DNA from: Polychytrium aggregatum
Lineage: Eukaryota > Chytridiomycota > Chytridiomycetes > Polychytriales
Direction of reading: 5' to 3'
NCBI RefSeq assembly: GCF_025602895.1
Contig: NW_026516212.1
Span: 496,001 to 560,000, forward strand
DNA: 64,000 bases
In this document: piece after piece, positions 1-63,869 of the stretch
Layout of the letters: every line of letters starts with the position of its first letter
Numbering within the stretch: position 1 is the stretch's first letter
Translations under genes and position numbers: made by a program
Notes under the pieces: generated by a model
Told to the model about the DNA's origin: nothing
Seen by the model: only the letters and a program-made list of their open reading frames with translations
The model's database searches: none

Positions 1-431
1 CCGGTGTGCTGATCGTCAAGCTTCGTCGCGGACAGGAGATCAAACTGACGTGCATTGCGAAGAAGGGAACGGCCAAGGAGCATGCCAAGTGGTCGCCTGT
101 CACCGGCGTCGCCTTCGAATACGACCCCCACAACCGACTTCGACACACGACCTACTGGGTCGAGGACGATGTGAAGAAGGAATGGCCGCTGAGCGAATGG
201 GGCAAAACACAAGATGAGCCGGCCGACGACGAGCCCTTCGACTATTTGGCAAAGCCCGATACGTTTTACTTTGGCATCGAAGGAACCGGCGCCATTGAGC
301 CCAAGGACGCTGTCGTTGGCGGCCTGAACATCTTGATATCCAAGCTCAAGCTGCTGCAGCGATGTGTATCCGACATCATGCAGGAGGAGGAGGACGAGAA
401 GAACCGCGCGGGTGGCCAGAGACTTTATTAA
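1..431 (+). CDS. RPB3: RNA polymerase II subunit RPB3, 3' part (5' end outside window)
   Basis: C-terminal part of RPB3 (POLR2C), the alpha-like subunit that dimerises with RPB11 in the Pol II assembly platform. The frame is open from the window edge to a TAA at 429-431, about 142 residues. Family landmarks: an RRGQE stretch, a KKG...KEHAKW segment, GVAFEYDP, and then DDEPFDYLAKPDTFYFGIEGTGA followed by the alpha-like C-terminal helix. The tail is acidic (MQEEEDEK). The start codon and N-terminal zinc/dimerisation half lie before base 1, so the real CDS is longer. The frame enters from upstream; no start was chosen here. Confidence 0.93.
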   Translation, partial: GVLIVKLRRGQEIKLTCIAKKGTAKEHAKWSPVTGVAFEYDPHNRLRHTTYWVEDDVKKEWPLSEWGKTQDEPADDEPFDYLAKPDTFYFGIEGTGAIEPKDAVVGGLNILISKLKLLQRCVSDIMQEEEDEKNRAGGQRLY

Positions 432-1408
432 TGCCTCCCGGCCCCGGACCGTGGTGCCGAGGCTGTGTGTGTGCTCGACCTTATCGGACGACCAGGGATT
501 GCGATAATCCGTGCATGACGAACGGACCGACAGTGTCTTGGCTACGGCTTGACTATGGCCGCTGGTTTCTGGATGAGTTCTTTGCTGAATATACGAGAGG
601 CCGTTTGCAGTGTTTCCAGAGTGAACACCAGTCTGCCATCGCCTATGAGGACGATACCGTGACAGAGTGCCCGATACCGATTGCAAGTCAACTCATCCAA
701 AGGCCCATATCGATGCGCTGGAGATCGCAGATGCCATACCGACAGGAGGGAATGTCTCCGTGTGTCCATGCTCGAATATCGAGCCCATTCGACTGGGAGC
801 ACAGAGGTGCGATCCCACAAGACGAAACGGAGTACCTGTTCGGGTGGTGACAGCGATCGCTTTCTGCGTCCTGGAGGCACGCCCATCCATCACCAGAGAC
901 GCCGAAGACCCCACAACGGCGAACATCCAACCAAGATCCACATGGAGGCCAAGCCGTGTCGTGTGGAGCTGTCTGGACGGTCCAAAGCGTATTGGATCTC
1001 GAGAGTGTGTCCTCTTGACCGACAACAGGCAGTGGTTCGATTCTTAAATAGCGCAAATGGGTGCTGTCTCGTTTCGTTCTGAGCAAGCTGTATTTAGAGC
1101 ACAAATATAGAAAATACGAGGGCTAAGCTGCGGGCACACCTTGAGCGCCATCAAGGGGAGGCGACACGGGCCACACAGGAGACTATGTATGAGATCGTTG
1201 TTGGTCTGGAAGGGCGGCCGTCAAGGGCTACTTTGGAGAATAATGAAACGCTTGAACAAATGCACTAAGCTTCAACCGTCCAAGCATACTGGCGGGTGCG
1301 CGAGCGTTGAGTCAATTTGGAAGTCGCCAGCTCGATACACTAGAGTCGACTTGACATGCTTGGTTACTGCCGGTGAAGGCGTGGTCGTTCGAGCTGTGGC
1401 CATGACGA
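432..1408. other. Intergenic, convergent 3' ends
   Basis: Lies between the RPB3 stop and the stop of the oppositely oriented monooxygenase. Overlapping open frames of 100-160 codons occur on both strands, but none resembles a protein family and they look like products of GC-rich sequence. I see nothing else in it. Confidence 0.6.
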
Positions 1409-3151
1409 TCAAGCGATCCAGGAGGCGAGCTTTCTGTTGGTTTCGGCGACGGGATCAAACAAGTTGCCGATGGCAGCAATGTAGCCATCGGGGCGGACGA
1501 GGATGTAGTCGGCGTGTCTCTGTCGAAGGACATGCTCAAAGCCATACTGGTAGTCGATCAGCACACTCATGCCCAGACTGCATCGGAGGCGATCGCCAAA
1601 TGGAATGACGGCGAAGCGGGCCACATTCGAGAGCTTGAGGAGCTGCAGTTGGCTGTTGATGCGGTCGATCTCGGCGACGCTCAGGCTTCGGGTGTGGGCG
1701 TACAAGAAGAACTTGAATCCCGTGGTCAGGGACAGAGCCCGGTAGAGACTGAGTCGTCCCGCCGTGGATTCGGGCAGATCGGAAAGAAGGTCAAGGTCGG
1801 GGAGCCTGTCGCCGGCCTGCAGTGCCGATTTGCTGGAGCGGCCTGTTATCCAGTTCCAGAAGCGGGAGAGCGGAGCCCATGCGGGCTTTGCACGGTAGTT
1901 GACGGCGATGCCCGCGATGCGTCTAAAGTATTCAACCTTGAGCGACTTGAGCATCGGGAGAATGAACAAGAACCCGCGGAGTCCCACACGGACCAGCCAC
2001 GAAGACGACATCACTCCCAAAATAAGGGTGTCGGTGACTCTGAGAACATCGGCACCGACGCGATGACGCTCCGGGTGGTAGGTGTCGAGGACCGAACTGG
2101 GGACCTGTCCCTTCAAGTACAAGGCCAGCTTCCAGCCGAGGTTGTATGAGTCCTGGATCGAGGTGTTGAGGCCCTGACCGCCCGCCGGAGAGTGCACATG
2201 AGCAGCGTCGCCAACCAGAAAGACGTTACCCTTGCGATAGGTGCCTGCCTGGCGCAGCTGGGAGCCAAAGACAGAGAGCCAGTGGGTCTCTTTGATGACG
2301 TAGCCGGTGTTGGTGAGGCTGTTGAGTGACGCCTGTATTTCCTCCTTGGTGACGACATGATCCTTGGGCAGGCGGCCCAGGCTCGGGTTGATAGTGATGA
2401 TTCGGAAGATGTTGCCGTCCATGGGGGCGATAAAGGCCATGCCCCGTCCAGGGGAGATCATGATGGGCCCATCGATGGCGAATCTGGACTGGTCGTCCAA
2501 GGTGACATCGGCGAGCAGGCCCGAGAACGCATAGTTCTTGCCCTCGAAGGAGATGCCAAAGAGCTCGCGGACTTTGCTGCGGGAACCGTCGGCACCACAC
2601 AGGAACTTGCACTGGATCGTGCGCTTCTGGTGTGGAGCCACCGTCGAGGCCACCGTGACAGTCACGGTCCCGTTCAGCTCGGCGGCATCGACAAGCTCAA
2701 TGCCTCGATGGACGGGCTGGCCCAGGTCCAGGAGGGCGTCCTCGAGGATCTGCTCGGTGACGACCTGCGAGATGCCGAGGACAAAGGGATATTTGGTGTA
2801 GGGCTGCAGCGGGTCGGTCTCGATATGGGTTATGGAGCGGATGCTCTTGCTCTTCTGGAAGTTGATCGAGGGAATGATATACCCAGAGTTGATGGCCTTC
2901 TCTGAGATTCTTGGATCGATCTGTTCAAAGGTCTCGACGGTTCTCGGATGGATGGCCAGGGCCCGAGAGAAGCTGGACTTTGTCTGGTGCTTCTCGATGA
3001 TGCAAACGTCGATTTCTCGGCGGGCCAGCTCGATCGCCAAGGCCAGGCCAGAGGGACCGCCTCCGACAATCATGACACTGACGGTGGAGGGCAAAACGGT
3101 GAGATCGGGGGCGTTTCCCGGGACGGAAGCTTGGGCGGAGCTGGAAGACAT
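1409..3151 (-). CDS. FAD-dependent aromatic-type monooxygenase
   Basis: Single-exon, 580 residues, starting at the ATG ending at 3151. Group A flavoprotein monooxygenase (PHBH/PheA-TfdB type), which typically hydroxylates aromatic or polyketide-like substrates with NAD(P)H and O2. Visible motifs: N-terminal Rossmann GGGPSGLALA at residues 30-39 with the acidic end of beta 2 about 20 residues on (CIIEKH), a CGADGSRSKVRE segment (the DG motif) in the middle, and the second FAD motif VGDAAHVHSPAGGQGLN near residue 315. The C-terminal third resembles the thioredoxin-like tail of phenol hydroxylases (an ILVRPDGYIA element near the end), as expected for a 550-600 residue enzyme. No signal peptide. 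The substrate cannot be deduced. It is the only intronless multi-domain gene among heavily split neighbours, so recent acquisition or retroposition is possible but unproven. Confidence 0.88.
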   Translation of the reverse strand: MSSSSAQASVPGNAPDLTVLPSTVSVMIVGGGPSGLALAIELARREIDVCIIEKHQTKSSFSRALAIHPRTVETFEQIDPRISEKAINSGYIIPSINFQKSKSIRSITHIETDPLQPYTKYPFVLGISQVVTEQILEDALLDLGQPVHRGIELVDAAELNGTVTVTVASTVAPHQKRTIQCKFLCGADGSRSKVRELFGISFEGKNYAFSGLLADVTLDDQSRFAIDGPIMISPGRGMAFIAPMDGNIFRIITINPSLGRLPKDHVVTKEEIQASLNSLTNTGYVIKETHWLSVFGSQLRQAGTYRKGNVFLVGDAAHVHSPAGGQGLNTSIQDSYNLGWKLALYLKGQVPSSVLDTYHPERHRVGADVLRVTDTLILGVMSSSWLVRVGLRGFLFILPMLKSLKVEYFRRIAGIAVNYRAKPAWAPLSRFWNWITGRSSKSALQAGDRLPDLDLLSDLPESTAGRLSLYRALSLTTGFKFFLYAHTRSLSVAEIDRINSQLQLLKLSNVARFAVIPFGDRLRCSLGMSVLIDYQYGFEHVLRQRHADYILVRPDGYIAAIGNLFDPVAETNRKLASWIA

Positions 3152-4117
3152 GCTGGTGTTGGTTGGGGTCTGGCGGACGCAAGAAGATTGGGATTATCAA
3201 GAGGCGGGCGGTCAGCATCATTGGACTTTTGGAGCAAACGAGCACCAGTCCGAGCGGACGAGTGGGCGGGCGCAATCAGCTGCGGAGCAAGAATCGGACG
3301 GATGCCACCAAAGGTATGAAGTGTGCGAGGCAGGACAGAGGGAACCACACGCTCATACCGTGGTAGCCAAGTGGTGTAGTGCGGTTAGATCATCGAAAGG
3401 CAGGCGGTGCCTTTTTTTATACGGAGGTCCTGGGGAAGTGCAAGCAATCCAAGGGGTCCAGCAAGTTTGGAGCGACGCGGGGAGCTGTGGGCAGCGGATG
3501 AGATGACTGCGACGCGCAGGAAGGGCGACGCGGGCGTTACGCCGGGGCCGAGACATGGAAGAGCACAACGGCATGGGTCATGGCCGAGTGACCAGAGGAG
3601 CGACAAGGATGCACAATTGGAGCCAATGGTCGGCCCGGTAAAACTGGGGAACTGGCGTGGGAGCGACGCAGGGCGACGGCCGTTGCGCAGGCAGCGATGG
3701 GAGATGCACACCGTGGTTGCGACTGGTGGCGCCTGGTGGCAACTGATGTGGCGACTGATGTGGCGATGATGCGGAAGAGTGTGGAAACAGTGTGGAAACA
3801 GTGTGGAAACGATACGCCAGTCACACGGCATGCATCAAGGATATCGACCGGGGATCTGGAAGGACCGGCAATTGATCAGCAGCACCACTTCCGCCGTTTG
3901 ACATTTGCGGGGCTGGTGCTCGGACAAGGCCGGGGCGGGCGATCCCGGAGAAACCAGGCGGGCGGATGTGTCAGCACCGAATCGAATGCGGCTCGAGCCA
4001 GCCGTCAAGGAGTCGATGTCCGCCTTGGTCGTGTCCATCAGCACCAGATCGACCGGCCCCTCGATCTGCTCATCCGTAAATCGGCCAGCCGACCAGCACC
4101 ACAGCCGACAGCTCGCC
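3152..4117. promoter_or_regulatory. Divergent intergenic region with short repeats
   Basis: Separates the start of the monooxygenase (-) from that of the FHA gene (+), so both promoters should lie here. It contains a three-copy tandem of an 11-nt unit (gtgtggaaaca) at 3779-3810 and a doubled ctgatgtggcga at about 3739-3765. No clear TATA box was seen. Frames within it lack recognisable domains. Confidence 0.4.
3779..3810. repeat. 11-nt tandem repeat, three copies
   Basis: The unit gtgtggaaaca is repeated without interruption about 310 nt upstream of the FHA start. TGTGGAAA-like cores can bind transcription factors, but that is only a guess. Confidence 0.7.
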
Positions 4118-5617: not shown

Positions 5618-8600
5618 TCAGTTGCGGCCGGTGCGGGTGAAGATGCTGACTTCGGGATACTCGTCGTCCTTCAGCTCGCTCGACGGCTGGATGGGGTTGG
5701 GAAGGAAGTGAGCATGGTTCAAGTAGCTGAGACACTTCTTGGCGAGCACTGTGGTGGAGACACCGGGCGCCGAGTAGATCGAGCGGGTGTTGGCGTTGTC
5801 GAGCTTGAAGGACATGTCCATCATCATGTGCATGAGCGGGAACAGGGCATTTTGGTCGAACAAGGGGTTGGTGGAAAGGATGTACTTGAACTTTTCACGA
5901 GTTTCAAAGAGGACGGGCCAGCCAAAGGAATTGACAATCTCGAACAGCTTGGTCTCAGTGAGGATACTGTGGTGAGTGAGTGAGTGAGTGAGTGGGTAAT
6001 CATAGTCGGAATCCACCATCCACACCACAACATATCACACCATATCACACCACACATTCCTCACCTGTGCTCCGAGTCGCTGATGTGGAACACAAACTTG
6101 GACAGGGACTCCTCCGAGCCGGCAATCTCGGCAACCACCTTGGCGACATGGTCGACGGGATCCATGGTCAAGGTGACGGGAGTGGCATACGACGGAGCAA
6201 CACCGAGTTGGATGCATCCCTTGACATATCGCCAGATGTAGTCATCAGAGTTGGACACTGGAGCGATGGAGGTGTGAAGGTGTCAGTTGGTGTCAGTTGG
6301 TGGGTGAGTGGCACTTGACAATCGAGACCATCGATTCATGGCCAGTCCGTGGGAATGAATGAGACATTTCCACTACATCACACCACATCACATCACATCA
6401 AATTCGACTCACCTCCGTACTGGCTGTCGCCAGCAATGACGGCTGGGCGGATGATCGTCGCAGGCACTCCCCTCGATCGTGCCTTGTTGACCAGCTGCTC
6501 AGAGACCCACTTGGTCTGGCCATACCCGCCAGAGATGTTCCAGGCCGAGTAGATCGTCTCCTCGAGCGGCTTGTCTGCCTTCTTGGCCATCGGGATCGTG
6601 CCGATGGTCGAGATGTAGTGCAGCGGCTTCAGGTGGTGGGTTGTGGCCAGTCTCAGGGCCGTCGCAGTGCCGAGGACATTGGGTCCCTTGAGTCTGTCAT
6701 AGTCAAACAGCCAGTGAACCTCGGCGCCGTTGTGGACAATCATGTCGGTCTCCTCGCTGATCTCCTTCCATCGCTCGTCCGAGAGTCCCCACTTGTCCTG
6801 CGACAGGTTGCCGCACAGTCCAACGAGTCGAGGCTTGAGGTTGTGGTCAAGGAAGGCTCTCTGGCTCGGATCGAGGACCAGCTTCTGAGCCGTGCTGATG
6901 ATGCGCTCGACAGCCACCTGCTCGGTCGGGGCTCGGACCAGGCAGTAGATCTTGGCCCGAGGGAACTTGTGGGCCAGCTCAAAGACCAGGAAGGCACCGA
7001 GGAAGCCAGTGGCACCGGTCAGGACGATGCCGCGAGGGTCCTTGGGATAGACAAACGGAGGGAGACCCTCGGCCGTCACACTCGCATCGTCGAGCTTGGC
7101 GGCCTCGGCAGCCAGATGGACGGTCGGGGGAATCATCGGTCTGTCGTCGAGGATGTCGACAACCAACTGGGCGACATCAGTCGGTGTCATTCCGTTCGAC
7201 AGGAGGATAAGTGGCGAGACCTCGACATTGAACTCGTCCTTGATGGCGAGGGCCAGACGGCCGACACTCAGCGAGTCAAAGCCGACGCCGCCGATGTAGT
7301 AGTTGCGGCCGTCGAGGGCGGGGTTGTCGATGATCTGGCTGCCAAGTGTGGAGATCTTGGCGGCGGTGCGGGACAGGGGAGTGTTGACGATGTCAAGGGT
7401 TGGATAGACAACCGACTCGCCAAAGTACTTGGCATGCTCGGCGAAACGCCTAAGCTTCTTGAGGTCGCGCTTGCCCGAGTCATTGAAGGGGAGCTGGTGT
7501 AGTTGGAAGACGTTGTGGATCGGGAACTTGGCGACGTTCTCGAGGGTAAATAGCTCCTCGGTGCGGCGGATCATCTCGCTGGGAGTTACTTTGAAGCCTG
7601 ATCCCTTTCGAACGACGTAGAGCATCACGATCTCCTTCTCGGAGGTTTGGATAAAGGTACAGTCTGTGATGGTATCAGGCATATGCTTGAGAACCAACTC
7701 CTCGAGAGCATTGAGGTCGACATAGACGCCGTTGACCTTGATCTTCTGGTCGAATCTGGAGTGATGGTGTGAAGTGAGGGAGTGGATGACGTGAGTACTC
7801 GAGATGCAGGAGTTGGATGTGTCCTCAGGGTACCAGATATACACTCGTCATCGATAAGAGATGCAACACCCAGCCATCGACTCACCTTCCAACCACAGTG
7901 AACTGCTTCTCGTCAACCATCTCGACCCAGTCCATGGTGCAGACACGGGGCGAACCATCCTCGAGAAAGCCGAAGGGTGCGAGTTTGTTGTTTGGATCGG
8001 CGTTGACAAAGTTGGGGTGGTTCTTGATGGGATGATCCTTGTCGACGGCAAAGCCAAGCACGCCGCTCTTGGAGACACTCTGGTCGACAATGTTGCCCTC
8101 TTCGTCAAAGAGGAGGCATCTCACACCGGGTTTGGTCAGCTTGTAAACCAACTTGTCTGGAACGGTTTGGCTGCTGGCTGGAAGGCAGAATAAGGTGAAC
8201 GCACCAATCAGGATTGTCTGGAGCAAGAACAGTTGATGAATTTAGTATCAAATCGTTGTGCTACTACGACAAGCAAATACTCACCTCGCTGGAGACATAT
8301 GCAGACATGATTTCGGCCTTAGGAAATGCCTTCTTGACCTGTGCCACCACGTTCGCTGGAACGAACTCCGAGCCCAGGCCGATCTTTCTCGTTTTCGTCC
8401 ATTTGACATCGGTATTCTGAGTCTGAGCGACACTGATGATCATCTTCATGAGCGAGGGCGTCTAAGAGGAGTGTATCAGAGGACAATCTGTCAGCACTGG
8501 AATGAAAGGCGGTTTGCCATCAATGCATACCCCTTACCAAATACAAATACCAAACACCATCTTCGAGCATTCTGATGATGCTCTTGACTTTGTCGACGGT

Positions 8601-10194
8601 GTTGGGTGTGGGCTCGGGTATCCAAACGGATCCTTTGAGGCTCAAGGTGCATAGCATTATAGTGAGAGTGGCGCTAAACGAAGGTGCCTGATTGCCATTC
8701 CGTGTTAGTTCTCATGCATGGATGGCTCAACACTGTCGCTCAGAATCGTGTCTTACCTGGCACAGCCCAGTACGTATATACTGAAGTACCAGCGCACCTC
8801 GGCCAGAAATTGCACCAGTATGAGGGAACTTGTATCTGATGAACCACAAAAAGGTACTGAGAGTTAGATCCTTCATTCGATCCGAGTTAGCAATACGGCT
8901 GCAATGCCATGAGTCACTTACGTCTTCGGGATGCCTGTTCGGTTGATTAGGGAGCAGCATCGAGACACAGAGGTCAGACACATTTCCAACCGGTGCTTCA
9001 TTGTCTGTCATCTACTGTCGCAACCGCTAGAGCTCAACTTCCCATGCTCGACCTTTGTGGCTGGACCTTGGCTTATCAGCAATCCCAGGCACTCGCGAGA
9101 TGCCGGGGACCACGGGGTCCTGATGGCTAGTGCGCCGCCACGGCGGCGCACAATAAAGAAAGAAAAAAAAATCCCAGGCACTCGCATACTCCTCTCACAT
9201 ACCAGTTGTTCCAGATGTTCCTAAATAGGCAATAAACTCATCAAGGGGCTCACAGACATCGAGGGACGGGGATGGAATGTCGTCCAACACCGGGAAGGTG
9301 GCAGCATCGACCAGGGTCACGCCTTCGGTGCGGCCGGGCTTGGTGTGGTGGTGGAGGATGTACTTGATCGCATGTCTGTCGGTTGGTGGCGATGTGAGTG
9401 TCAGGATCTCAGTCGACCAGCCCAGAAGAGAAGCTGGCTCGATTCAAACCCCGGACCAGCCTGCTCATCCTAACGATAGCAACCAGCACTAACCTCTCGC
9501 ACAGGGCCTTGCGGGCTGCAGGAGGCAGGTTGAGGGCAAGGTTGAGTGTTTTCCTGGATGGAGTTCAAAGGACAGGTGAGACTCGACCCTTGACATGGCA
9601 CGGAGCAAGGGTTGAACATGTCCCTTGCCTGAGCCCGTCCTCACGACTCCATATCACAACAGCATTTATCACACAGCAACAGACCAGAGATACTCACTTG
9701 CCAAGCATCCACAAGGCGAACGAGAAGATCACCCAGCTGGCTTCGGCCTCACAGAAGGTGCCGATGACGTCGTGGCCGTCGTCGTTCCAGCCAGGGAGAG
9801 CCTTGAGGGCCTGGGCGATGGAATAGGCTTGCTTCCACACCTGGAGATAGCTGAGTCGCTCCGAGGCACCGTTCTCGTATGTGTTGATCAAGAGGGCATC
9901 GGGCTCATCGCGAGCAGTGTTGATGAGACACTCGACGGGATGGAGCCAAGGGCCAAACGGATCGGGCGGAGGAGGGAACTTTGGCTGCTGGGAAACAGGG
10001 GTCTGGGTCCGGGGTTGAGTGTCAGCAGATTGGGCGACGACATCCTGGGTCTGCTCGGAGACAGGAGGCTGGCTCTGTTGGGCTGCTGGTGGGTGGGTCT
10101 GCTGGTAGAGGGAGATAGGGGTCTGCTGGGAGACATCTCGGCCGTCGACCGGGTCTGAAGACCCTCCAAAACAACAGGAGATGGCCCTGAGCAT
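5618..10194 (-). CDS. NRPS-like carboxylate reductase (adenylation-thiolation-thioester reductase)
   Basis: Eleven exons (-): 10194-9698, 9553-9494, 9375-9203, 8934-8922, 8835-8757, 8687-8538, 8461-8285, 8217-7886, 7755-6413, 6257-6065, 5966-5618; phases match and give 1121 residues. An adenylation (AMP-binding) domain fills about residues 60-600: its P-loop TSGTTGIPKT is assembled from exons 3, 4 and 5, and KVNGVYVDL plus NDSGKRDLKKL mark its end. A carrier domain follows, with GGVGFDSLSVG near residue 649 (Ser for phosphopantetheine), then an NAD(P)-binding thioester reductase domain with VLTGATGFLGAFLV near 735 and a YGQTK catalytic pair near 903. Enzymes of this A-T-R order activate a carboxylic acid, load it on the carrier and release it reductively as aldehyde or alcohol. 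It lacks a condensation domain and is shorter than Lys2 (about 1400), so it is probably not the lysine enzyme. The N-terminus is Pro/Gln-rich. Exon 4 is only 13 nt. A gene on the opposite side of the FHA gene encodes a flavin monooxygenase. Confidence 0.9.
9081..9185 (+). mobile_element. Short retroposed element with A-rich tail and 16-bp target-site duplication
   Basis: A 16-bp direct repeat (aatcccaggcactcgc) at 9081-9096 and 9170-9185 brackets a 73-nt insert (9097-9169). The insert contains two perfect hairpins (9107-9111 with 9116-9120; 9130-9139 with 9142-9151) and ends in an AATAAA-containing A-rich tail directly before the second repeat. This is the signature of LINE-driven retroposition of a short structured RNA. 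It sits in an intron of the A-T-R reductase (intron 8935-9202) in antisense orientation to that gene, so the protein is unaffected. No clear tRNA B box is visible, so the parent RNA is unknown. Confidence 0.72.
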
Positions 10195-10756
10195 GGCGGA
10201 GAGGCGGGGTGAGGGCGACGAAGGTGTTGATGCCAAAGCCAGATGGGGGCAGGAGAGCGAGGAGGGAGCTGAAAGGGCGAAACGAGACAACGACGACGAG
10301 GGGAAAGGGCGAGGGGAGAGCCTTTTGTCGTCTGGGCAGCCAGGGGAAAGCGCCTTTGGCCTGGCTGCTAGCCAAATTGCATTGAATAAGTGCTCTTGCT
10401 TTCTCTCGGGGTGCTGAGTCTGCCAGCGTGACCGGCTCTGTGCCCGGGCGGTGGGTGTGGCTGGTTGCCCCTCGATGCTGTGCTGTTGCCTCGCCCAGCA
10501 ATGCCTTGCTGTTTCCCCTCTTGGCCAGTGATTGGTCCATCCGACCAGAACACGTGTTCGGGTTTGACACTTCCCAAACTGTAAAGGTCATATCCAATGG
10601 CCCGACACTCCCTGCGTCCTCGACACTGCTTTCCTCGTCGTCGCTGACACGATTCGATTGATCGAGGTCATCGGCAGCGAGCACCGAAGCATCTCCGGCC
10701 AGGATGGAGTCTACGATTGATTGGGATCCCAAGAGTAGGTCCTCGTGAAAGGCATA
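10195..10756. promoter_or_regulatory. Upstream region of the A-T-R reductase
   Basis: Between the reductase ATG (10194) and the stop of a doubtful gene at 10757. Purine-rich on the + strand around 10200-10330. No definite promoter motif. Confidence 0.35.
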
Positions 10757-11476
10757 TTATTCAGGATCGCTCTCGGCCTCATCGAGGGCAACGTCATCCG
10801 ATACAGCATCACGATCAGACATATACGAGTCGTCGTATGTGCTGGCGGTGTCAGCCCATGGCTGGATATACAGTGCGATCGCATCTTGCACCATGCCCGT
10901 CACAGAGACAAATGGTTCAGCTCCAAGTTGAGGGTGATGTGGTCGTTGGGATGCGCCGCTCTGAACGGGATGAGCAGCACTGGATCGATGAACATACGGC
11001 CAGGAGGGTGCTGGATCGTATGCAATGTGAGTGTGATGTTGTTGGTAGTATGAGCTGTCGAATCCTGCGTGTTTGTCTCCCTGACGCATCCATTGTCGGG
11101 GATGATGGAAAGATCAGGAGTTCGAATAGTCGGTTGGATCGGGCTGTCACGGACTTGCGATGGAATTAACACTGGTGTGCGATCGTCGGCTTGCCGGAGA
11201 GGCAGGCTCCCGATCATGCCCAAAGGAAGCGGATGGATCGAGGAATGCTGCACCGGGCAGCGACGACGGCGGATAGCCGTCTTGGGCAGGGATACCTGGA
11301 TGCATGAGATCGAGAGCTGTTCCTGAATGGCACAGATGGAATGATGCAGATGAGGAGAGGAGAGAGGACGGGGAGCGAGAACCAGAGTATGGCCTGCCAC
11401 GACGTGGCTGTCGGATTGGTGGCGCTGCAGTCAGAGGTGACACGGGCTGGTCGGCCTTGTGGAGCGTGTCCGCCAA
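10757..11476 (-). CDS. Possible small hypothetical gene (two exons)
   Basis: A coding-like frame from about 11064 down to a TAA at 10757 has a good acceptor (CACGCAG) and reads as a Tyr/His/Pro-rich, then acidic tail (AESDPE at the end). An upstream Ser/Pro/Arg-rich frame (about 11476-11165) could be joined in the same phase. No convincing ATG was found for the first exon, and no domain is recognised. The composition suggests a disordered protein if real. Confidence 0.3.
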
Positions 11477-12030: not shown

Positions 12031-15000
12031 ATGCCTTCCGCAACAGGTTAGTCTTCTTCGACGTGATGACGAGCGCAGACAACACGACACTCACCTGTGC
12101 TGTGTGGTTGCAGAGATGGAGGACTTTGACGAGTTCCTCAGGCAAGCAGACCTGGTCAAATACAGGGATGTCTTCCTGGAGAACGAATACGATACAGTCA
12201 AAGTGGTAAGCGAACTCTGCAGCAGATGTCCTGTTGCATATCGCGGTGCTGACTGTTGGCCGCTTCAGCTGCTCGCCCTTGAGGTGTCTGACATGAAGGA
12301 GATTGGAATGAAGCCCGGCGCCATCAAGAAGCTCCAGATGGCGCAGAAGCAGCACGAACAGACCCATGCCCAAAGCGCAATCCCGGCATCCTCGCAGACA
12401 CACACACCGCCGCCACCCCAGTCCCAGCCCAACGAAGTCGTTGTTCAGGAGCCCACCAGAGTCCTCACTGCCAACGACTACGTTCCAGCGCACCCTCTGG
12501 ATGGCTGGGTCTGCCAGAACAACTTTACGTCTCATGAAGTCTTCATCAGGTGGCGTTGATATCCAGCATCAGAGCGACACCACATTCGCCTGTTCCGCAC
12601 CAACTGACTCGCATGGACTTCCACTTGCTGACCGACCGTCCTTCCTCAGCTACCGGGTCGAGAGCGACGCTGTCAATGCATCGTCGCTGCATGGGACCCT
12701 GGCCACAACCCCTCGAGGCCACACGGCGCTCCATCCATACCTCGACATCCAGTGTCTCTGCAACGGCATGGACTGGGAGCAGGGTTTCATCAACGGTCTC
12801 TACAAGTCCAACGTCATCATCGTCATTCTCTCCGAGGACGGTCTGAAGCGCACCTTCAACGCACATGTCTGGCCCGACAATCAGTTCCTCGAGGTGGGTC
12901 AGGTGCTGATCCTGGTCTCATTCGTCAAACCATAACTCACATTCACTCGTCCATCCACAGATCCAGCACGCCCTCAAGTTGATGCAGGACACCGCCGCCA
13001 CCGACCACCCAGTCATCGTTCAGCCTGTCCTCATGTGGTCCACTCGCAAGTTCGGCGACGAGACCCTCAAGAAGGAGTATTTTCCGCCAGTCAACAAGTT
13101 CCCTGACTTTCCTCCGGCGCACAAATCCAGTCCACTCTTCGATAATCAGCCGATGACTGTCCAGCATACATTCAAGGAGCTGTTCAAACTCCAAGCACTC
13201 AAGGCTGTCGATACAGCCGCTCTCAGACAGTAAGTGTGAATGTCCCTCAGCAGCAACTCATTCCTATTGCTGACTCACATTCTCAATCTACAGCCTGGTT
13301 CCTGCGTTTCGAGAGCTTGTCACCAAGACCATGACTGCTGCAGACCAAGGAGTGACATACCACCAAGGCGGGCCCATCCAGCTCACCGCCGAACAGGATT
13401 CGCTCCTGCGATCCCTCCTCGATCCCGTCGACTCGACTATGGACAGACGTGCACTCGAGGATCTGTATGTCGAGGGCACCCGCCAGTGGCTGTTCGACCA
13501 GACCACCGACTGGGTCAACCAGGACACCACCGACACTGTCCTGTGGGTCAATGCCGTTGCTGGAGTGGGCAAGTCTGTCGCTACTGCCCAGATCGCCAAC
13601 ATCCTCACAGCCAGCAACCAGCTGGTGTCGGCGCTGTTCCTCAAATACAATGACATCCGCAAGAGCGATCCACGAGTGGTGTTAAACACCATCGCATACG
13701 GTCTGTGCAAATGGTACGCACCGATCGGCCGCAAACTGCTCGAAACCAAGGTGACAGAAGATGTAGGCACTGGTAATAGCAGTAGACAGACCAAGCGAGC
13801 CATCACCAAGGACGGCCTCGACAAGATGAGCATCCCCGAGTTGTTCAAGGCCGTGATTGCCGATCCACTCAAAGCCATCGGCGACTACAAGCCCAAGGGA
13901 TCGGTGATGATCATGGTCGATGGACTCGACGAGTGCCATCCCCGCGACCAGCTGCTCAGTCTGCTTGCCGGCCGGTTTGTCGAACTGAACAAGACCCGTC
14001 CGTGGCTCAAGTTGCTGCTGACCTCCCGCCCCGAGGCCGACATCAGGGATGCCTTCCGAGGAGTCCCGACCAAGACGATCGAACCGTCGAGCGAGGACAA
14101 CATCCGCGACCTCCGGGTGTTCATCGACCATCATCTCAGGGACCACCCCAGCCTCAGCGAGTCGGACCGCACCGAGGCAGTCGCCATCCTGCTGGACCAG
14201 TCCAAGACATTCGTGTGGATCAACCTGATCCTCAACACCGTCGATTCAGCAGCCAAGGACGGCCCAGTGACACTCGCCACGATCAAGGACATCAACGACA
14301 GCGCCGCCGATGTCGGGCAGTTGTACAACAAGACATTCGCCAAGATCCACTCGCAGTCGAGCCACCCGGCCGAGTTGGTCACAGTGGTGTCGGCAATCGC
14401 CACGGCCCAGTCGATCCTGACCCCACAGATCATCGCCGATGTGTTTGGACTCGAGATCGGCGTCGTTCGCGAGTGTCTCAAGAGCCTCACTCTGGTCCTC
14501 GATCCAGGCGCCAATGGACTGGATCCCCGAGACAGCCAGTCCACCAACACCGAGGTCAAGTTCAACCACAAGTCGGTGGCGGACTATCTCCTCGGCGACG
14601 CATCGACTGGCCATCCGTGGCATGTGTCGAAAGAGTTCCACATGGTGTTTGCTAAGGGATATCTCGGAGTGATCCTCTCGCACGACCCAGTGGTCAACAT
14701 CTGCGATATCTACGAGTTCCACGAGCGAATGTCTGATCATAATGATGATTATGCCGAGCTCTTGCTCAATGACTTTGATGGCTCTGATGAACCGTATCAC
14801 GATTATGAACCTGAGGAGTACTTTGATCCAGATTACGGTAACTCTCAGCCTGATTACTATGATGAGTACTTTGATCCAGATTATGAAGCCAACGAATACT
14901 ATGACGATCAAGAGTTTGGCCAGGAGGAAGCAATCTCCTATACCGTAAGAAACTATTCCGCGCCTGAGAGGAATGACAACGAAGCCAATCGTGTTGCTGA

Positions 15001-16312
15001 AGTCATTGACGATGATAGTATCTCCGACCTCGAATCGATTGAGATTTCACTTGATCTCGACAAGTTGGTTGCGGAGAAACTTTCGCCGCTTCTCCAGTAC
15101 AGTGCGACACACTGGATCACCCACCTCGCATGGTGTCTCGAGGAAGTGGACGAGTCGAGCCCGGTGTGGCAGTCGTCCGAGTTCAGCGCCCTGAGTGCAA
15201 CCCTGGCCAAGTTCATGTCAAGCCATGTTTTCTTCTGGCTCGAGTGTGCGTCGCTCATGCGCGCCGTCCCGTCGATCACCGAGCAGCTGGCCACCCTTCA
15301 AAAAATTATCAGCATGGCACCCAGAACCATCGTCGACGACACCACGAAGGAGCTGGTCAAGGACACGTATCGATTCATCCGCGAGTTTGCCGATCCGATC
15401 AGTGCGAGTGCACCTCAGGTGTACTACTCGGGGTATGCATTCACACCGAAAGGAACAACGATCTACAAGACATATGCTGCCCAGCTCGAGGACAAGATCC
15501 CGTTTTCGGTGACTGTCGGCGTATCGCCCGTCTGGGATATGAGGGAAATCATCTTCCCTGGACCACAGCAAGATCGTATTTTTGCCTATTCGTCTAACCT
15601 AAAGTGGGTTGTCACCAGCTCAAACGACACCATCAAACTGTGGGATATGACGACAGGCGAGCTGAAACAGATCCTCCAAGGAAATCCAGAACAACTGAGA
15701 TGCGTGTCCATCTCGCCAGACGGGAGCTGGATCGCCTCTGGCTTGGTTGACTCTACGATCAAGGTGTGGGATACCGCCACTGGACGAATAACGCAATCCC
15801 TCAGGGGCCATAACGGTGCACTCAGTGCTGTGATCGTGACATCCGATGGTCGGTACATCATCTCCCAGGATGATCATAATGGCAGCATAGTCTGGATGAA
15901 GCGCAACAACGACTTTGTTCAAGTGTCTTTCACCAACCCTCCATTTGATTCGCGACTATCGAAGCGCATCTCTCGCGGGTGGAAGCACACGGATATGCGC
16001 CACTATGCCGGAGATATCGAGTTCAACTATGCGCCTGGATGGATTCGCCAGGGCAAATATATCATAAGCACTCCAAAACAACTCGTATTTCGGAGTCTTG
16101 CCCCAGAAATCAGTGCGTTCACACCCTCTGGTGGTCTGATCATCTGGAAAAAATTTCAATTGCCAACAATGGTCATCGAGGTAAGCACACTGCTGCGCGA
16201 ATCCCTTGATTTCCTTGATTGCTGACCTTTCGATCTACAGTTCAACTTTGATGAAATCACAGCGCCGCAGCACACCAAAATCAAACCAAAGAGAGCTATC
16301 AGCTTTTGGTAA
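12031..16312 (+). CDS. SAM-TIR-NACHT-WD40 NLR-like receptor
   Basis: Seven exons: 12031-12046, 12114-12205, 12269-12549, 12650-12893, 12961-13229, 13294-16180, 16241-16312; every junction is GT-AG, phases agree, total 1286 residues. Order: SAM domain about 7-60 (FLRQADLVKYRDVF ... EIGMKPGAIKKL); Pro/Gln linker; TIR domain about 120-240 with box 1 VFISYR at 127-132, LDIQCLCNGMDWEQGF where Glu173 sits at the NADase catalytic position, a VIIVILS strand and DNQFLEI (box 3-like); NACHT with Walker A AGVGKS near 390-395, Walker B MVDGLDEC near 508-515 and LLTSRPE; the FNHKSVADYLL winged-helix-end motif seen in fungal NACHT proteins; an acidic Asp/Tyr-rich stretch about 780-848; then only two or three WD40 repeats (LWD near 1084, VWD near 1124). 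Known TIRs of this kind cleave NAD+ or scaffold signalling, and STAND receptors oligomerise on ligand sensing. Inferred role: intracellular sensor triggering NAD+ loss or cell death. No membrane segments or signal peptide. Confidence 0.9.
14816..14883 (+). repeat. Tandem duplication inside the receptor's acidic Asp/Tyr tract
   Basis: The 20-nt word gagtactttgatccagatta occurs exactly twice 48 nt apart, encoding EYFDPDY twice. The surrounding 14730-14935 is markedly AT-richer (gat/tat codons) than the rest of the gene. Third-position identity of the copies points to recent duplication. Confidence 0.75.
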
Positions 16313-17128: not shown

Positions 17129-20100
17129 TCAGAAGCCTCTTCGGCGACCATTCTTTCTTGCGCGATTGCCCCCGGCTCCGTTGCCACCGGCCAAACTGCC
17201 ATTCCCCTTGCTGGCCGATCTTTGGCGAGAGCGGTTGCTGAGCTGGGAATCATTCGAGGCGAATCCAGCGCCAGTGACCACTGCTGACCGTGATACTTCG
17301 ACGGCAATCGAGTCGATGGCAATAACGTCAATGTCAACACATCTCTGGTCGCGCCGGAGCATGAGCTGCTGGCGGCGTCGCTGTGAATCAATCTCGATCG
17401 ATGCGAGTTCTCGGTAGGTGCGTGTCGCATACTTTTCCCAGCCCCTGTACCCGACACCATCGGCCGAGCGTGTCCAGTGGCAACGGGGTTGGACAAAACA
17501 CATGCACAGCGTTAGCGCCAGTTATCCAGAACCACGGTTGCACAGCACAGCCATGTTGGAGCGACAGATTCTCTCTCCACGAGCCATTTTGCAGCAGTGA
17601 CATACTCGAGCGGGACACGGCCTTTCGAGTCGGGATCGCCAAGTGCCTGGAGGCTACGTGCAGTGGTATCGTCATCTTCATCGTCCATGTAGACACGATC
17701 GTAGATCCGGAAGCCTAGATCCACGAGTCGCCGCAGATTCTCGAGGTGCTTCTGTGTGTCGATGAGCAGATCAAGGAAGAGGCGCGCTGCCGGACGGTTG
17801 CGCTTGAGATCACGCAGATGGATCTGGTACCGAGACTGAGGCTTGACTAAATCGATGCTGGAATCGGCGATGCCCGGCAAGGGTGGATGAGAGGCTGGTT
17901 CCATCTCTGATACGGTTCAGCAGCCCCAGCCACAGCAACTCTCCCGAGGCACTGTATCATTCACGCCGAAGCCGCCCAGGAGGCCGCCGAGTCACATACA
18001 TGACGGAGAAAAAGTCGTCTGTTTTGAAGCGGTCGTTGAGTCGCGGCGACTGGAAGTTCCAGAAGGTCTCAAGCTCCAGAAGGGACAAAACTCCGTCGCC
18101 GTCCAGATCCAGACACCGGAACCAGTACTCGAGTGCAGCGTTGGTTGTCTTGTCCTCAACGGACATGATGAACGCTTGACGGTGGCAATGACGAATGAAC
18201 CAAAGGTAAGTCAGAACTGGATTGGGATGTGGACGTAGTTGAGGGCATTTTCACACTGAACTCTGGCACACACACTTACGGATAAATTCCTTGTACGTCA
18301 TTTTGCCTGTATGGAGTGCTAGCTGCGGCATTGCATAGCCGTCTAAGATCCGCTCAATGACTTTGGGAGAAAGGGCATCACAGCCATAGGACTCCAGGTC
18401 CTCTTGGGCGAGCAGCTGCGGAGCATATTCGGCAACATCAGTCCCAGCCAAAGCAAGACAAAGGGAAGCACAGCGACCAAAGATACACGCCGAGGCTGCC
18501 GGCTGGTTGGATTGAGCATCCTCGACTTGTGCTTGACCCACTAAATACGCAACAGAGGCACACCGGCTATGTCCGGCGGATCGAATACTTGCTCGGATGC
18601 CTTACCATGTCGCGATCTCGATCAAGCTCCCAGAACTAAGACGTTTTTGTTCCATGTGGAGTTAGCGCCGTCCAGCCAGCTGCTCTGCCATCGTCCAGCG
18701 CCAGCCAAAACCACCCATCGTACAATCTCTGTACCACGGACCTGCATGCCGGCCATACCTTGCAGTAAACGACATAGAAATCCTTGTACGAAAACAGACT
18801 TGGCATCTGCCGATAGACTCGTTCAGAGCACATCCATCTTGCAGGTGCACCACCAACCTGCAACATATACACAGACCGTGCAGCGATCGTGCACCCTCGG
18901 CGACGGCCACTTACCAGGGGAGAGACACTGGTCTTGGCAAGATTGACTTTGTTCAAGATTTCGATGATATTCATCAGCCGGAACTCGGCTAGAGTCATTT
19001 GCCCGTTCATGCCTCGGGGTTTGATATAGAATATCCGAGCTACGACAGTATCAACTGGATCGATGGCGACATGAGATCAGCACACAGCATAGCACAACGG
19101 GTCGCCTGCTGCCTCGAGAAACAGGTGTCGCGGAAGGCTTGTGTCTGCTGTGCATTCATGAAAGGGTGTGGCGCCGCACGTACTGTATCGGTCCTGGAAA
19201 TTTGGCGAGGTTGCCAAAAACTCGAACGCCGGGTGGTTTTCAATCACGTCTATGGGCGAGTAGCATGAGCACGGGCCCGACAACAACAGCATCCAGGCCA
19301 ACAGCAAGTAGACTCAGGGCCCAAGTCGATTGCACAACGTACCTCTTGCCACAACTTCCAGATCGGCAGGAAGAAGCACGGTTTGCTCTTGCCCTTTGAG
19401 CAAATTGAAGCCCACTTGGGTGATGTCGGCGGTGGTGTATGCATCGATAGCGCTCAGCACTCTGTGACATTGAGTCCCAGGGCAGCCATGAGAGTTCATA
19501 CATCAGAATACCAACATTAATGAGCCGGCACCAGGCGAGTACAGCAAGCCACAGCCACAGGCACAGGCTCCCGGGCCTTCGCCATGTGTCTACGTCCGCC
19601 GCTACTAACCGATCGACTTCGATCCATCGAACACTTTGGTGAGGGCTGGCGCCAGTGTCGTCTCCGATCCGGACCGGGGTGGCTTCGCGTGCCCGGCGGA
19701 AGAGCGCAAGGGTCAGATACCTGGGCAGCCCTATCGCCGCAGAGACACAGACCAGATCGGACAGGGCCAGACATCTCTCGTCTCCAGTGTCTGAGGAGAT
19801 AAACAGCTGCTTGACCTGTGTTCTCTGCAGTGGCAGCCACACGGCAGCGGGGCACAAAGCGTCGTTACGGTGGAGTTAGAGTTCTGTCGGATGCAGAGGT
19901 CTCCCACGCGACAATCGATATCGATGCAGGCAGTGCTGGTGAACAGCAACAGCGAGATCCTTACCAACTCTTGGCGACGCTCGTCTGAAAGTGCATGCTT
20001 CGAAGGGAAAAAGAACCGCGGGATTCCCTGCAGGGATGGATGGACGAACAGGGCATCCAGGGCCGCCCGCAACAAGCGGATACAGCAGCGTCCGGTCGAG

Positions 20101-62268: not shown

Positions 62269-63049
62269 GGCTGTGGGCAGAGCTGAGGGACTGATGTGAA
62301 CGGGCGGGTTATGAGCAGGCGGTAAGTGCATGGGGTTGGAGCCGTCCAGGGAGGGGTTTATCAGTGCGGCCGCATGGGTCGGTTTGGCGGGCGGGATTTC
62401 AAATGGGCCCGTGACGGGAAAAACGGAAATTTTTTTCCTGCGGGCTGCACCGGATTGGCGCGGTGCAGGGCGTGGCCAGTGTTTGCTGTTCGTGCCGAGT
62501 GCGTCGATGGCGGAAGACCCGTGGGGCAAAGTCGATGACGGAAGGTCCGAGGCGAGCCGATGGCGGAAGATGCACACGCCAAGCCGACACGATGACAAAT
62601 GTCGGTGATATAGACGGCCTGGCGATGCAGGACAGGGTGTGTGCGCTGACGTGCTGCCTGCAGGCTTGGCGATGGGCAAAACCCCTCTCCTCGGTGGATC
62701 CATGCGCAGGCCATGGCGGCATGTGCCGCGGGCCCAACACGCAACGGCACGCATCGATCCTCCCGCTTGGCTCCAGGCTCCGTCTGTGCCAGCGTTACAC
62801 CATAATGTCCCTGGCCGGCCGCACTCTGGCCGTCCACACCTGGGCCGGCCTCTGAATGGTATCACGTGGCCAAGCATCCTGGCACACGCACGTGGTCAGC
62901 CGCCGTCGCACAGACAAGCAACGCGCCCACGCCCCTGTCCCGTTTCGGCCCGTGTGCGACCGGCATGTTGCCCAACATTTCGCGTGTGTGCGCGTCTGGG
63001 GCTGGTCATGGTGACTCTTGTTTCCTTGCCTGGCGCAGCCACTTTCGGC

Positions 63050-63057
63050 TATATATG
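63050..63057 (+). promoter_or_regulatory. TATA box
   Basis: tatatatg about 112 nt upstream of the Reeler-protein ATG, followed by a pyrimidine-rich leader, in keeping with a strongly expressed secreted-protein gene. Confidence 0.6.
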
Positions 63058-63079
63058 CTTCCTTCGGCTCCTTCATCGC

Positions 63080-63155
63080 TTGGCCAACCTTCGACAATCC
63101 GACAATCCAACAATCCGACAATCCATCAGTCCATCAATCCATCAGTCCATCAACT
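63080..63155. repeat. caatccga/catcagtc leader repeats
   Basis: Short 8-12 nt units repeated about seven times in the presumed 5' UTR of the Reeler gene. Confidence 0.8.
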
Positions 63156-63167
63156 CAACATCTCACC

Positions 63168-63869
63168 ATGGTCAAGTTCCTCTCTGCCTTCGCCGTCGTC
63201 CTGGCCTCGGTCGCCTCGACTTTTGCCTATCCCACCGGTGCCGGCACCTGCAACGCCGATGCGACCGCCATCCACTACGGCATGGGCTTCACCCAGAACC
63301 CCTCGGGCTTCAGCCTCTCGGCCTCCTCGGCCGTCTATACCCCCGGCACCCCGCTCACCATCACCGTCCAGGGCAGCGGTACCTTCAAGGGCGTGCTGCT
63401 CTATGCCACCCTCGACGACGGCACCACCCGTGTCGGCACCTGGCAGATCGACAGCGGCTTCCGCTCCATGCCCGAGTGCACCGGCAGCGACCCGGCCGCC
63501 TCCATCACCCACTCCAACCCCAACGTCAAGAACGCCGGCACCACCTTCACCTGGAACCCACCGGCCTCGGCCAGCGGCAACGTCCACTTCCAGGGCGCCA
63601 TCGTCCCGGACATGCCTTACTTTGACATTTTTGCTTCCGTGGTGCTCGCGCCTGCTGCTCCTCCCGCTCCCGTCGTCACCACCACCACCACTGTCGCTGC
63701 GGCCTCCAGCAGCTCGCCGGCCCCTGCTCCTCTTGTGTCGGCCACCTCGGCCTACGCCGTCTCCAGCCCCGTCGTCGTCACCACCACGACCACCGTCGCC
63801 ACCGTCACCGTCACTGCCACGACCTCTGTGGCCCCTGCCTACTCGGCCACTCGTCGCTGCAAGGCCTAG
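63168..63869 (+). CDS. Secreted Reeler-domain protein
   Basis: Intronless, 233 residues. Residues 1-20 form a signal peptide (MVKFLSAFAVVLASVASTFA then YPTG). The body (about 21-165) matches the Reelin/Reeler fold: Cys near 27 and 107 (a likely disulphide), a YTPGTPLTITVQG strand, FKGVLLYATLDDG, VGTW, then SITHSNPNVKNAGTTFTWNPP and SGNVHFQGAIV, a recognisable Reeler ending. The C-terminal 65 residues are Ala/Pro/Ser/Thr/Val-rich with Thr runs (likely O-glycosylated), without a clear GPI signal. Codon choice is strongly biased to C-ending codons, suggesting high expression. Reeler proteins include extracellular and ferric-reductase-linked modules; here the domain stands alone, so it is most likely a wall or secreted protein. 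Confidence 0.85.
   Translation: MVKFLSAFAVVLASVASTFAYPTGAGTCNADATAIHYGMGFTQNPSGFSLSASSAVYTPGTPLTITVQGSGTFKGVLLYATLDDGTTRVGTWQIDSGFRSMPECTGSDPAASITHSNPNVKNAGTTFTWNPPASASGNVHFQGAIVPDMPYFDIFASVVLAPAAPPAPVVTTTTTVAAASSSSPAPAPLVSATSAYAVSSPVVVTTTTTVATVTVTATTSVAPAYSATRRCKA

Follow-up and report, generated by a model that had tools for sequence, protein, structure and literature searches.

We analysed a 64,000-nucleotide stretch of the genome of Polychytrium aggregatum, a chytrid of the order Polychytriales (contig NW_026516212.1, positions 496,001 to 560,000; this whole stretch is the window). The gene under study lies on the plus strand at 12031-16312. Its model has seven exons and 3861 bases with one stop, and encodes a predicted protein of 1286 residues. 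All six introns are GT-AG and 60-100 bp long, and a single stop-free frame runs across the seven exons. This reproduced exactly the phase-consistent model of the original prediction, which had been made from the DNA letters alone and had proposed that a SARM1-like SAM-TIR module is joined to NACHT and WD40 domains in one fungal protein. As judged from its sequence, the gene itself is real. The coordinates of its features are shown in Table 1.

The predicted protein was searched against Pfam. SAM_1 was found at residues 6-59 (33.4 bits, cut-off 23), with SAM_2 also over its cut-off. The NACHT-type NTPase and two stretches of WD40 (58.3 bits, cut-off 27) were likewise above their cut-offs. With the TIR piece of the window protein, TIR_2 was the only family at E<=10, and 7/7 family members matched TIR_2 at E<=10 when their TIR pieces were scanned singly (best 5.8e-7). 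No HET domain was found in the TIR piece or among the 25 best of the 38 Pfam matches to the whole protein. VFISYR, the TIR box 1, was located at residues 127-132, and the Walker A and Walker B motifs were read intact, both as the original prediction had stated. The features of a fungal NOD-like receptor (NLR), a NACHT-type NTPase with Walker A/B motifs and a C-terminal WD40 array, are present, the array having two repeats only here.

The assembly was searched with the TIR and NACHT cores. At least 135 TIR matches and at least 100 NACHT matches were obtained, the 100 NACHT matches including three loci counted in two pieces. Among the 94 strongest TIR matches, 91 had a same-strand NACHT match located 405-932 bp downstream, and 95 of the 100 NACHT matches had a TIR upstream. 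The three strong TIR matches without NACHT were one on contig C114, which was too near the contig end, and two equal-scoring places, one being the locus L056. The 91 pairs are an assembly count and not a gene number, since the assembly seems to contain many haplotype pairs, seen as equal-scoring places that lie on separate contigs. The 3' flank of the window gene (17600-19000) has one match in the genome. Matches lay in the order SAM, TIR, NACHT, WD40 at the paralogous loci L039-L043. L044 has TIR, NACHT and WD40 without SAM, and reads from an ATG shared with the window gene straight into the TIR. A SAM stood directly before the TIR in the window gene and in 22 of 26 sampled loci, as counted with a family-SAM profile searched by halves (L039 and L043 are in both the profile and the counted loci). 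These sequence comparisons indicate that the window gene is one member of a large chytrid family, in which the TIR-NACHT architecture is the rule.

Relatives were also found in Chytriomyces. Three hypothetical proteins, HDU78_009105 (P0001), BC830DRAFT_1141173 (P0003) and BC830DRAFT_1233804 (P0004), were deposited in fused form and have the same domain order as the window protein. Their TIR pieces are 42-45% identical to the window TIR. They carry 10, 8 and 3 WD repeats, respectively, compared to two in the window protein, and P0003 (Chytriomyces sp. MP71) has two SAMs. A protein search with a 300-residue piece matched three proteins, all from P. aggregatum. When all proteins were searched with residues 1-300, taken from the full-length query, nothing matched; this search also missed P0001, in which these domains are present, so it is no evidence of absence.

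Selection was examined by the ratio of nonsynonymous to synonymous substitution (dN/dS). For exon 4, which encodes the TIR core, dN/dS between the window gene and its paralogs was 0.10-0.50 with a middle value of 0.21 in the 18 of 26 comparisons where it was defined; eight were undefined (dS zero in three, saturated in five), and many other dS values were above 1. The NACHT region gave 0.25-0.45 against 7/7 paralogs. Selection on both the TIR exon and the NACHT region looks purifying from these ratios.

A further 41 weaker TIR matches (E above 3.8e-14) lie outside the 91/94 statement, and one of the 41 adjoins a NACHT match. Many are in open frames of about 570-700 codons (e.g. C359:38582-38800, C101:313293-313517 and C261:16180-16398), and they may form a second TIR family of this chytrid. 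L056 (C397:342200-343800) holds a degenerate TIR, in which the catalytic stretch is lost and the box-1 Tyr is His; no NACHT match lies nearby.

Splice sites were compared in 26 sampled loci, of which the pattern recovered 18 and missed eight. Acceptor 3 (AG followed by YTAYCG) and donor 4 (after DNQxLE) were conserved in 18/18 recovered loci and the window gene. Donor 3 (TTCATCAG followed by GT) was conserved in 17/18 and the window gene, L052 having TTCATTAG followed by GT. Intron 3 was 56-128 bp long among the relatives. The SAM was split at about one common point in the SAM-carrying loci (22/26). Since its halves lie in different frames in several loci (e.g. L042 and L043), an intron between the halves is needed. 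P0121, a deposited P. aggregatum paralog model, has introns 1 and 2 spliced correspondingly. Neither intron 1 nor intron 2 of the window gene contains an in-frame stop, so translation may start at the exon-2 ATG instead of exon 1, or an intron may be retained; exon 1 is uncertain for this reason. Just before exon 7, residues 1071-1249 are 33% identical to the C-terminal part of L039.

The SAM domain appears to be generic. In a profile search, the first SARM1 chain was at rank 23 of the best 60 listed, with Caskin, ANKS and Eph SAMs ahead, which rules out a specially SARM1-like SAM. The window gene has one SAM and not a SARM1-type tandem pair. Tandem SAMs before the TIR were found in L046, L048 and L049, and in L057 with one weak half. 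A genome scan with Pfam SAM_1 gave seven places, none at the listed TIR loci, because an intron splits the SAM.

When the family TIR profile was searched against PDB, 17 sequences were recovered at E<=10. All were SARM1 (best 5.4e-4), and the alignment was ungapped between strand C and the catalytic Glu. The original prediction had assigned a TIR to the 120-240 region; the structure model of the relative P0001 has a TIR fold. Among the 50 Foldseek matches listed, the TIRs of flax L7 and L6 were on top, and one non-TIR enzyme was at rank 45. As plant TIRs tie in this ranking, structure was rejected as proof of SARM1 kinship. The sequence profile supports SARM1 as the nearest of all solved TIRs. 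The kinship is modest: its E value of about 5e-4 came from the profile only, and the single-sequence search, the structure ranking and the SAM domain do not show it. The SARM1 likeness proposed for the SAM-TIR module was thus borne out for the TIR profile, and neither the structure ranking nor the SAM singles out SARM1. Bacterial and archaeal genomes were also scanned with the TIR alignment, using two narrow patterns only; 104 stretches matched and none was confirmed, so a bacterial donor may exist all the same.

By profile alignment to SARM1 chains, Glu211 is the equivalent of SARM1 Glu642. This position is Glu in 30 of 31 alignment rows, L056 being the sole exception; the rows are not independent, as P0123 and L064 are apparently one gene and several loci are near-identical. 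In the P0001 model, the equivalent residue sits in helix 94-111, in agreement with the SARM1-type Glu, which is in helix C. The original prediction had placed Glu173 (DWEQGF) in the NADase position. Its equivalent in the P0001 model belongs to helix 59-69, which precedes strand C, and the position is Glu in 28/31 rows, with Lys and Asn in two of the three Chytriomyces proteins. Glu173 was rejected as the catalytic residue since Glu211 aligns with Glu642; it is nonetheless conserved. The gene model, the motifs and the SAM, NACHT and WD40 assignments of the original prediction were retained, and Glu173 was replaced by Glu211.

We hold, with slightly better than even confidence, that the gene encodes a fungal NLR-type receptor whose NACHT clusters a SAM-TIR NADase, with Glu211 as the catalytic residue, causing cell death or arrest. 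The C-terminal WD40 part, possibly with the acidic insert private to this copy, would sense a ligand or a disturbed partner. Sensing would release the NACHT NTPase for nucleotide exchange and oligomerisation. Oligomerisation, aided by self-associating SAM domains, would gather the TIR domains, and the assembled TIRs would cleave NAD+ through Glu211. NAD depletion or a signal product would then lead to cell death or arrest. We infer these steps, from sensing and oligomerisation to NAD+ cleavage, cell death and immunity, by analogy with what is established for NLRs and SARM1. The chain draws support from the anatomy, from the conserved Glu and from the selection, and the enzyme step carries the largest doubt.

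Several observations weigh against this reading. TIR_2 at residues 127-230 is below its Pfam cut-off in the window protein (21.8 and 24.6 bits, cut-off 28). A single-sequence PDB search with residues 1-300 gave 14 matches at E<=10, all SAM chains and no TIR. The place of SARM1 Trp638, four before the catalytic Glu, is Asn207 and is Asn in 30/31 rows, and Gly169 is Gly in only 24/31 rows; NADase activity is therefore not assured. Two WD repeats are also too few to close a propeller alone.

Asn at the Trp638 position would suit a TIR that is a non-catalytic scaffold. Once the NACHT is activated, the SAM and TIR would polymerise and bring in further TIR or SAM proteins, and no NAD+ would be cleaved. 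Among the best 60 matches listed for the SAM profile, Caskin and ANKS SAMs are closest; self-association is known for these SAMs. However, Glu211 is kept in all rows except L056, which is degenerate there and has no NACHT nearby, and the only solved TIR recovered by the family profile, SARM1, is an NADase. We regard such a scaffold as rather unlikely, and the NADase receptor remains our preferred reading.

The window copy has its own peculiarities. Of its WD repeats, put at two or three in the original prediction, two were detected, and no third. L039-L044 and L065 have 8, 11, 10, 10, 11, 13 and 12, respectively, where the counts include partial repeats and full ones are fewer (three in L044). 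The mean pair identity of the repeats is 0.25-0.69 in these seven paralogs, and the window copy has one full repeat only. In L065 (C146:52800-58400), pair identity in the 12-repeat WD40 array is up to 0.90, resembling the highly conserved repeats of Podospora receptors. The acidic insert is left uncovered by the matches to L039-L044, and its sole match in the genome is itself. The gene body at 12105-14724 shares 90-92% identity with L039 and L040, both of which have a SAM. Since the 5' flank matches L044 while the body matches L039 and L040, the window gene appears chimeric, with parts of two paralogs meeting near exon 1. Compared with L039/L040, intron 2 shows a single-base difference, which lies in the donor; in the TIR core exon, no synonymous difference separates the window gene from L039-L041. 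This is the pattern that recent exchange would leave. L044-type genes on C112 and C407 are preceded by 90% matches to window positions 10794-11100, and the shared 5' flank may extend further upstream than 11717.

The short WD array, the private insert and the chimeric 5' end could also mark a receptor that has lost its sensor and is decaying, or serves as a helper or decoy for full-length paralogs. This is improbable in our view: the model has no frameshift or stop, the NACHT dN/dS is low as given above, and P0004 from Chytriomyces also has three repeats only. A two-gene arrangement, in which a short protein (SAM-TIR or SAM) stops upstream of 13294 and the NACHT-WD40 protein starts separately, is very improbable, since the 64-bp GT-AG intron 5, the narrow genomic TIR-NACHT spacing and the three fused Chytriomyces proteins support a single gene as originally predicted. 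The observations on the other side are that P0121 reads into intron 3 and stops, that P0122 and P0123 (partial) are short, and that an intronless TIR-NACHT copy was sought in L065 and not found, as its 1604-codon open frame does not coincide with that of the TIR across the second TIR exon.

Table 1. Features of the SAM-TIR-NACHT-WD40 gene (window coordinates)
Feature	Coordinates	Residues	Strand	Basis or remark
5' flank and start codon	11717..12039		+	blastn, 96.7% identity to SAM-less L044 (G000:C112)
Exon 1	12031..12046		+	start ATG, MPSAT; start common to L044; least certain exon
Exon 2	12114..12205		+	first SAM part; intron-1 acceptor common to L039/L040; P0121 uses the corresponding junction
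Exon 3	12269..12549		+	second SAM part (to ~12337), proline-rich linker, start of TIR box 1
Exon 4	12650..12893		+	TIR core, SYR to DNQFLE
Glu173 codon	12777..12779	173	+	catalytic residue proposed earlier; not the catalytic position
Glu211 codon	12891..12893	211	+	equivalent of SARM1 Glu642, by profile alignment to SARM1 chains
Exon 5	12961..13229		+	TIR end and family-specific extension up to the NACHT part
Exon 6	13294..16180		+	NACHT-type NTPase, helical part after the NTPase, acidic insert, WD40 repeats
NPHP3_N (NACHT-type NTPase)	13475..14029	362-546	+	Pfam, 84.5 bits, cut-off 24.8
Walker A, AGVGKS	13559..13576	390-395	+	sequence
Walker B, VMIMVDGLDE	13904..13933	505-514	+	sequence
Acidic, Tyr-rich insert	14753..15055	~788-888	+	private to the window copy
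Two WD40 repeats, first partial	15590..15805	1067-1138	+	contracted array; Pfam and repeat detection
Exon 7 and stop	16241..16312		+	rests on splice sites

Other genes were also observed in the window. On the minus strand at 6393-10587, and especially at 9700-10410, there are pieces of a reductase-type gene (AMP-binding, PP-binding, NAD_binding_4). Within 9700-11100, the first 710 bases are for the most part repeated at 12 other places with 79-96% identity, and shorter pieces occur at more (73 matches including itself). A FAD_binding_3 protein is encoded on the minus strand at 1409-3193 (250.6 bits) and a Reeler-domain protein at 63015-63869 (62.3 bits).

A 2026 survey of eukaryotic TIRs reported almost no fungal TIRs in its database, those coming from one chytrid, Rhizoclosmatium globosum, and the InterPro TIR clan held no fungal sequences on the date of that survey (PMC13142454). 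In this study, one chytrid assembly holds 91 TIR-NACHT pairs, counted with haplotypes unmerged. A 2025 survey of ten chytrid proteomes gave NLR numbers from one upwards in Chytridiomycota (PMC12258605). Our literature search, which left subscription journals mostly outside, found no paper on a SAM-TIR-NACHT-WD40 or TIR-NACHT-WD40 protein, and TIR-NACHT appeared only in an amphioxus paper. Chytrid TIR-NLRs and the amphioxus TIR-NACHT and TIR-SAM proteins are known; what would be new is a chytrid expansion of NLRs that carry a SARM1-like SAM-TIR effector.

Should the TIR prove to be an NADase, TIR-NLR immunity would operate in fungi outside Dikarya as it does in plants, with an effector like that of SARM1, and it would become possible to test where the SAM-TIR pairing came from. 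We tentatively suggest, at clearly less than even probability, that the chytrid and SARM1 modules descend from one early-opisthokont SAM-TIR NADase, or spread by transfer, and came under an NAD-sensing ARM lock in animals and an NLR switch at tens of loci in chytrids. With a shared origin, a single ancestral cell-death enzyme would have been put to two uses, axon death through SARM1 and NLR immunity in fungi.

SARM1 has N-terminal ARM repeats that inhibit its TIR. The family resembles SARM1 in that the SAM adjoins the TIR and is tandem in some members. It differs in that the SAM starts at residue 6 of the window protein, leaving no room for ARM repeats before it, and in that NACHT and WD40 follow the TIR, the Trp638 place is Asn and the SAM is not specially SARM1-like. 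SARM1 homologs have been reported in choanoflagellates (PMC6040629). The Podospora receptors HET-E, HET-D and HET-R (HNWD) share with the family an N-terminal TIR-related effector, a NACHT and a WD40 array of variable repeat number (PMC12881547, PMC4986451). Their effector is a HET domain, whereas the chytrid effector is SAM plus TIR with no HET match in the TIR piece. Plant TIR-NLRs have NB-ARC and LRR and no SAM, unlike the chytrid protein with NACHT and WD40. A small group of fungal TIR-NLRs has been reported (PMC10197012), and TIR was reported on fungal NLRs in Chytridiomycota in a paper whose accessible part mentions neither a SAM-TIR pairing nor a family of this size (PMC9815663). Amphioxus has TIR-NACHT, TIR-SAM and TIR-NB-ARC-WD40 hybrids (PMC2575513). 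Both the TIR-NACHT and the TIR-SAM pairing therefore exist there; however, the accessible part of that paper lists them as separate hybrids, whereas the chytrid gene is predicted to carry both in one protein.

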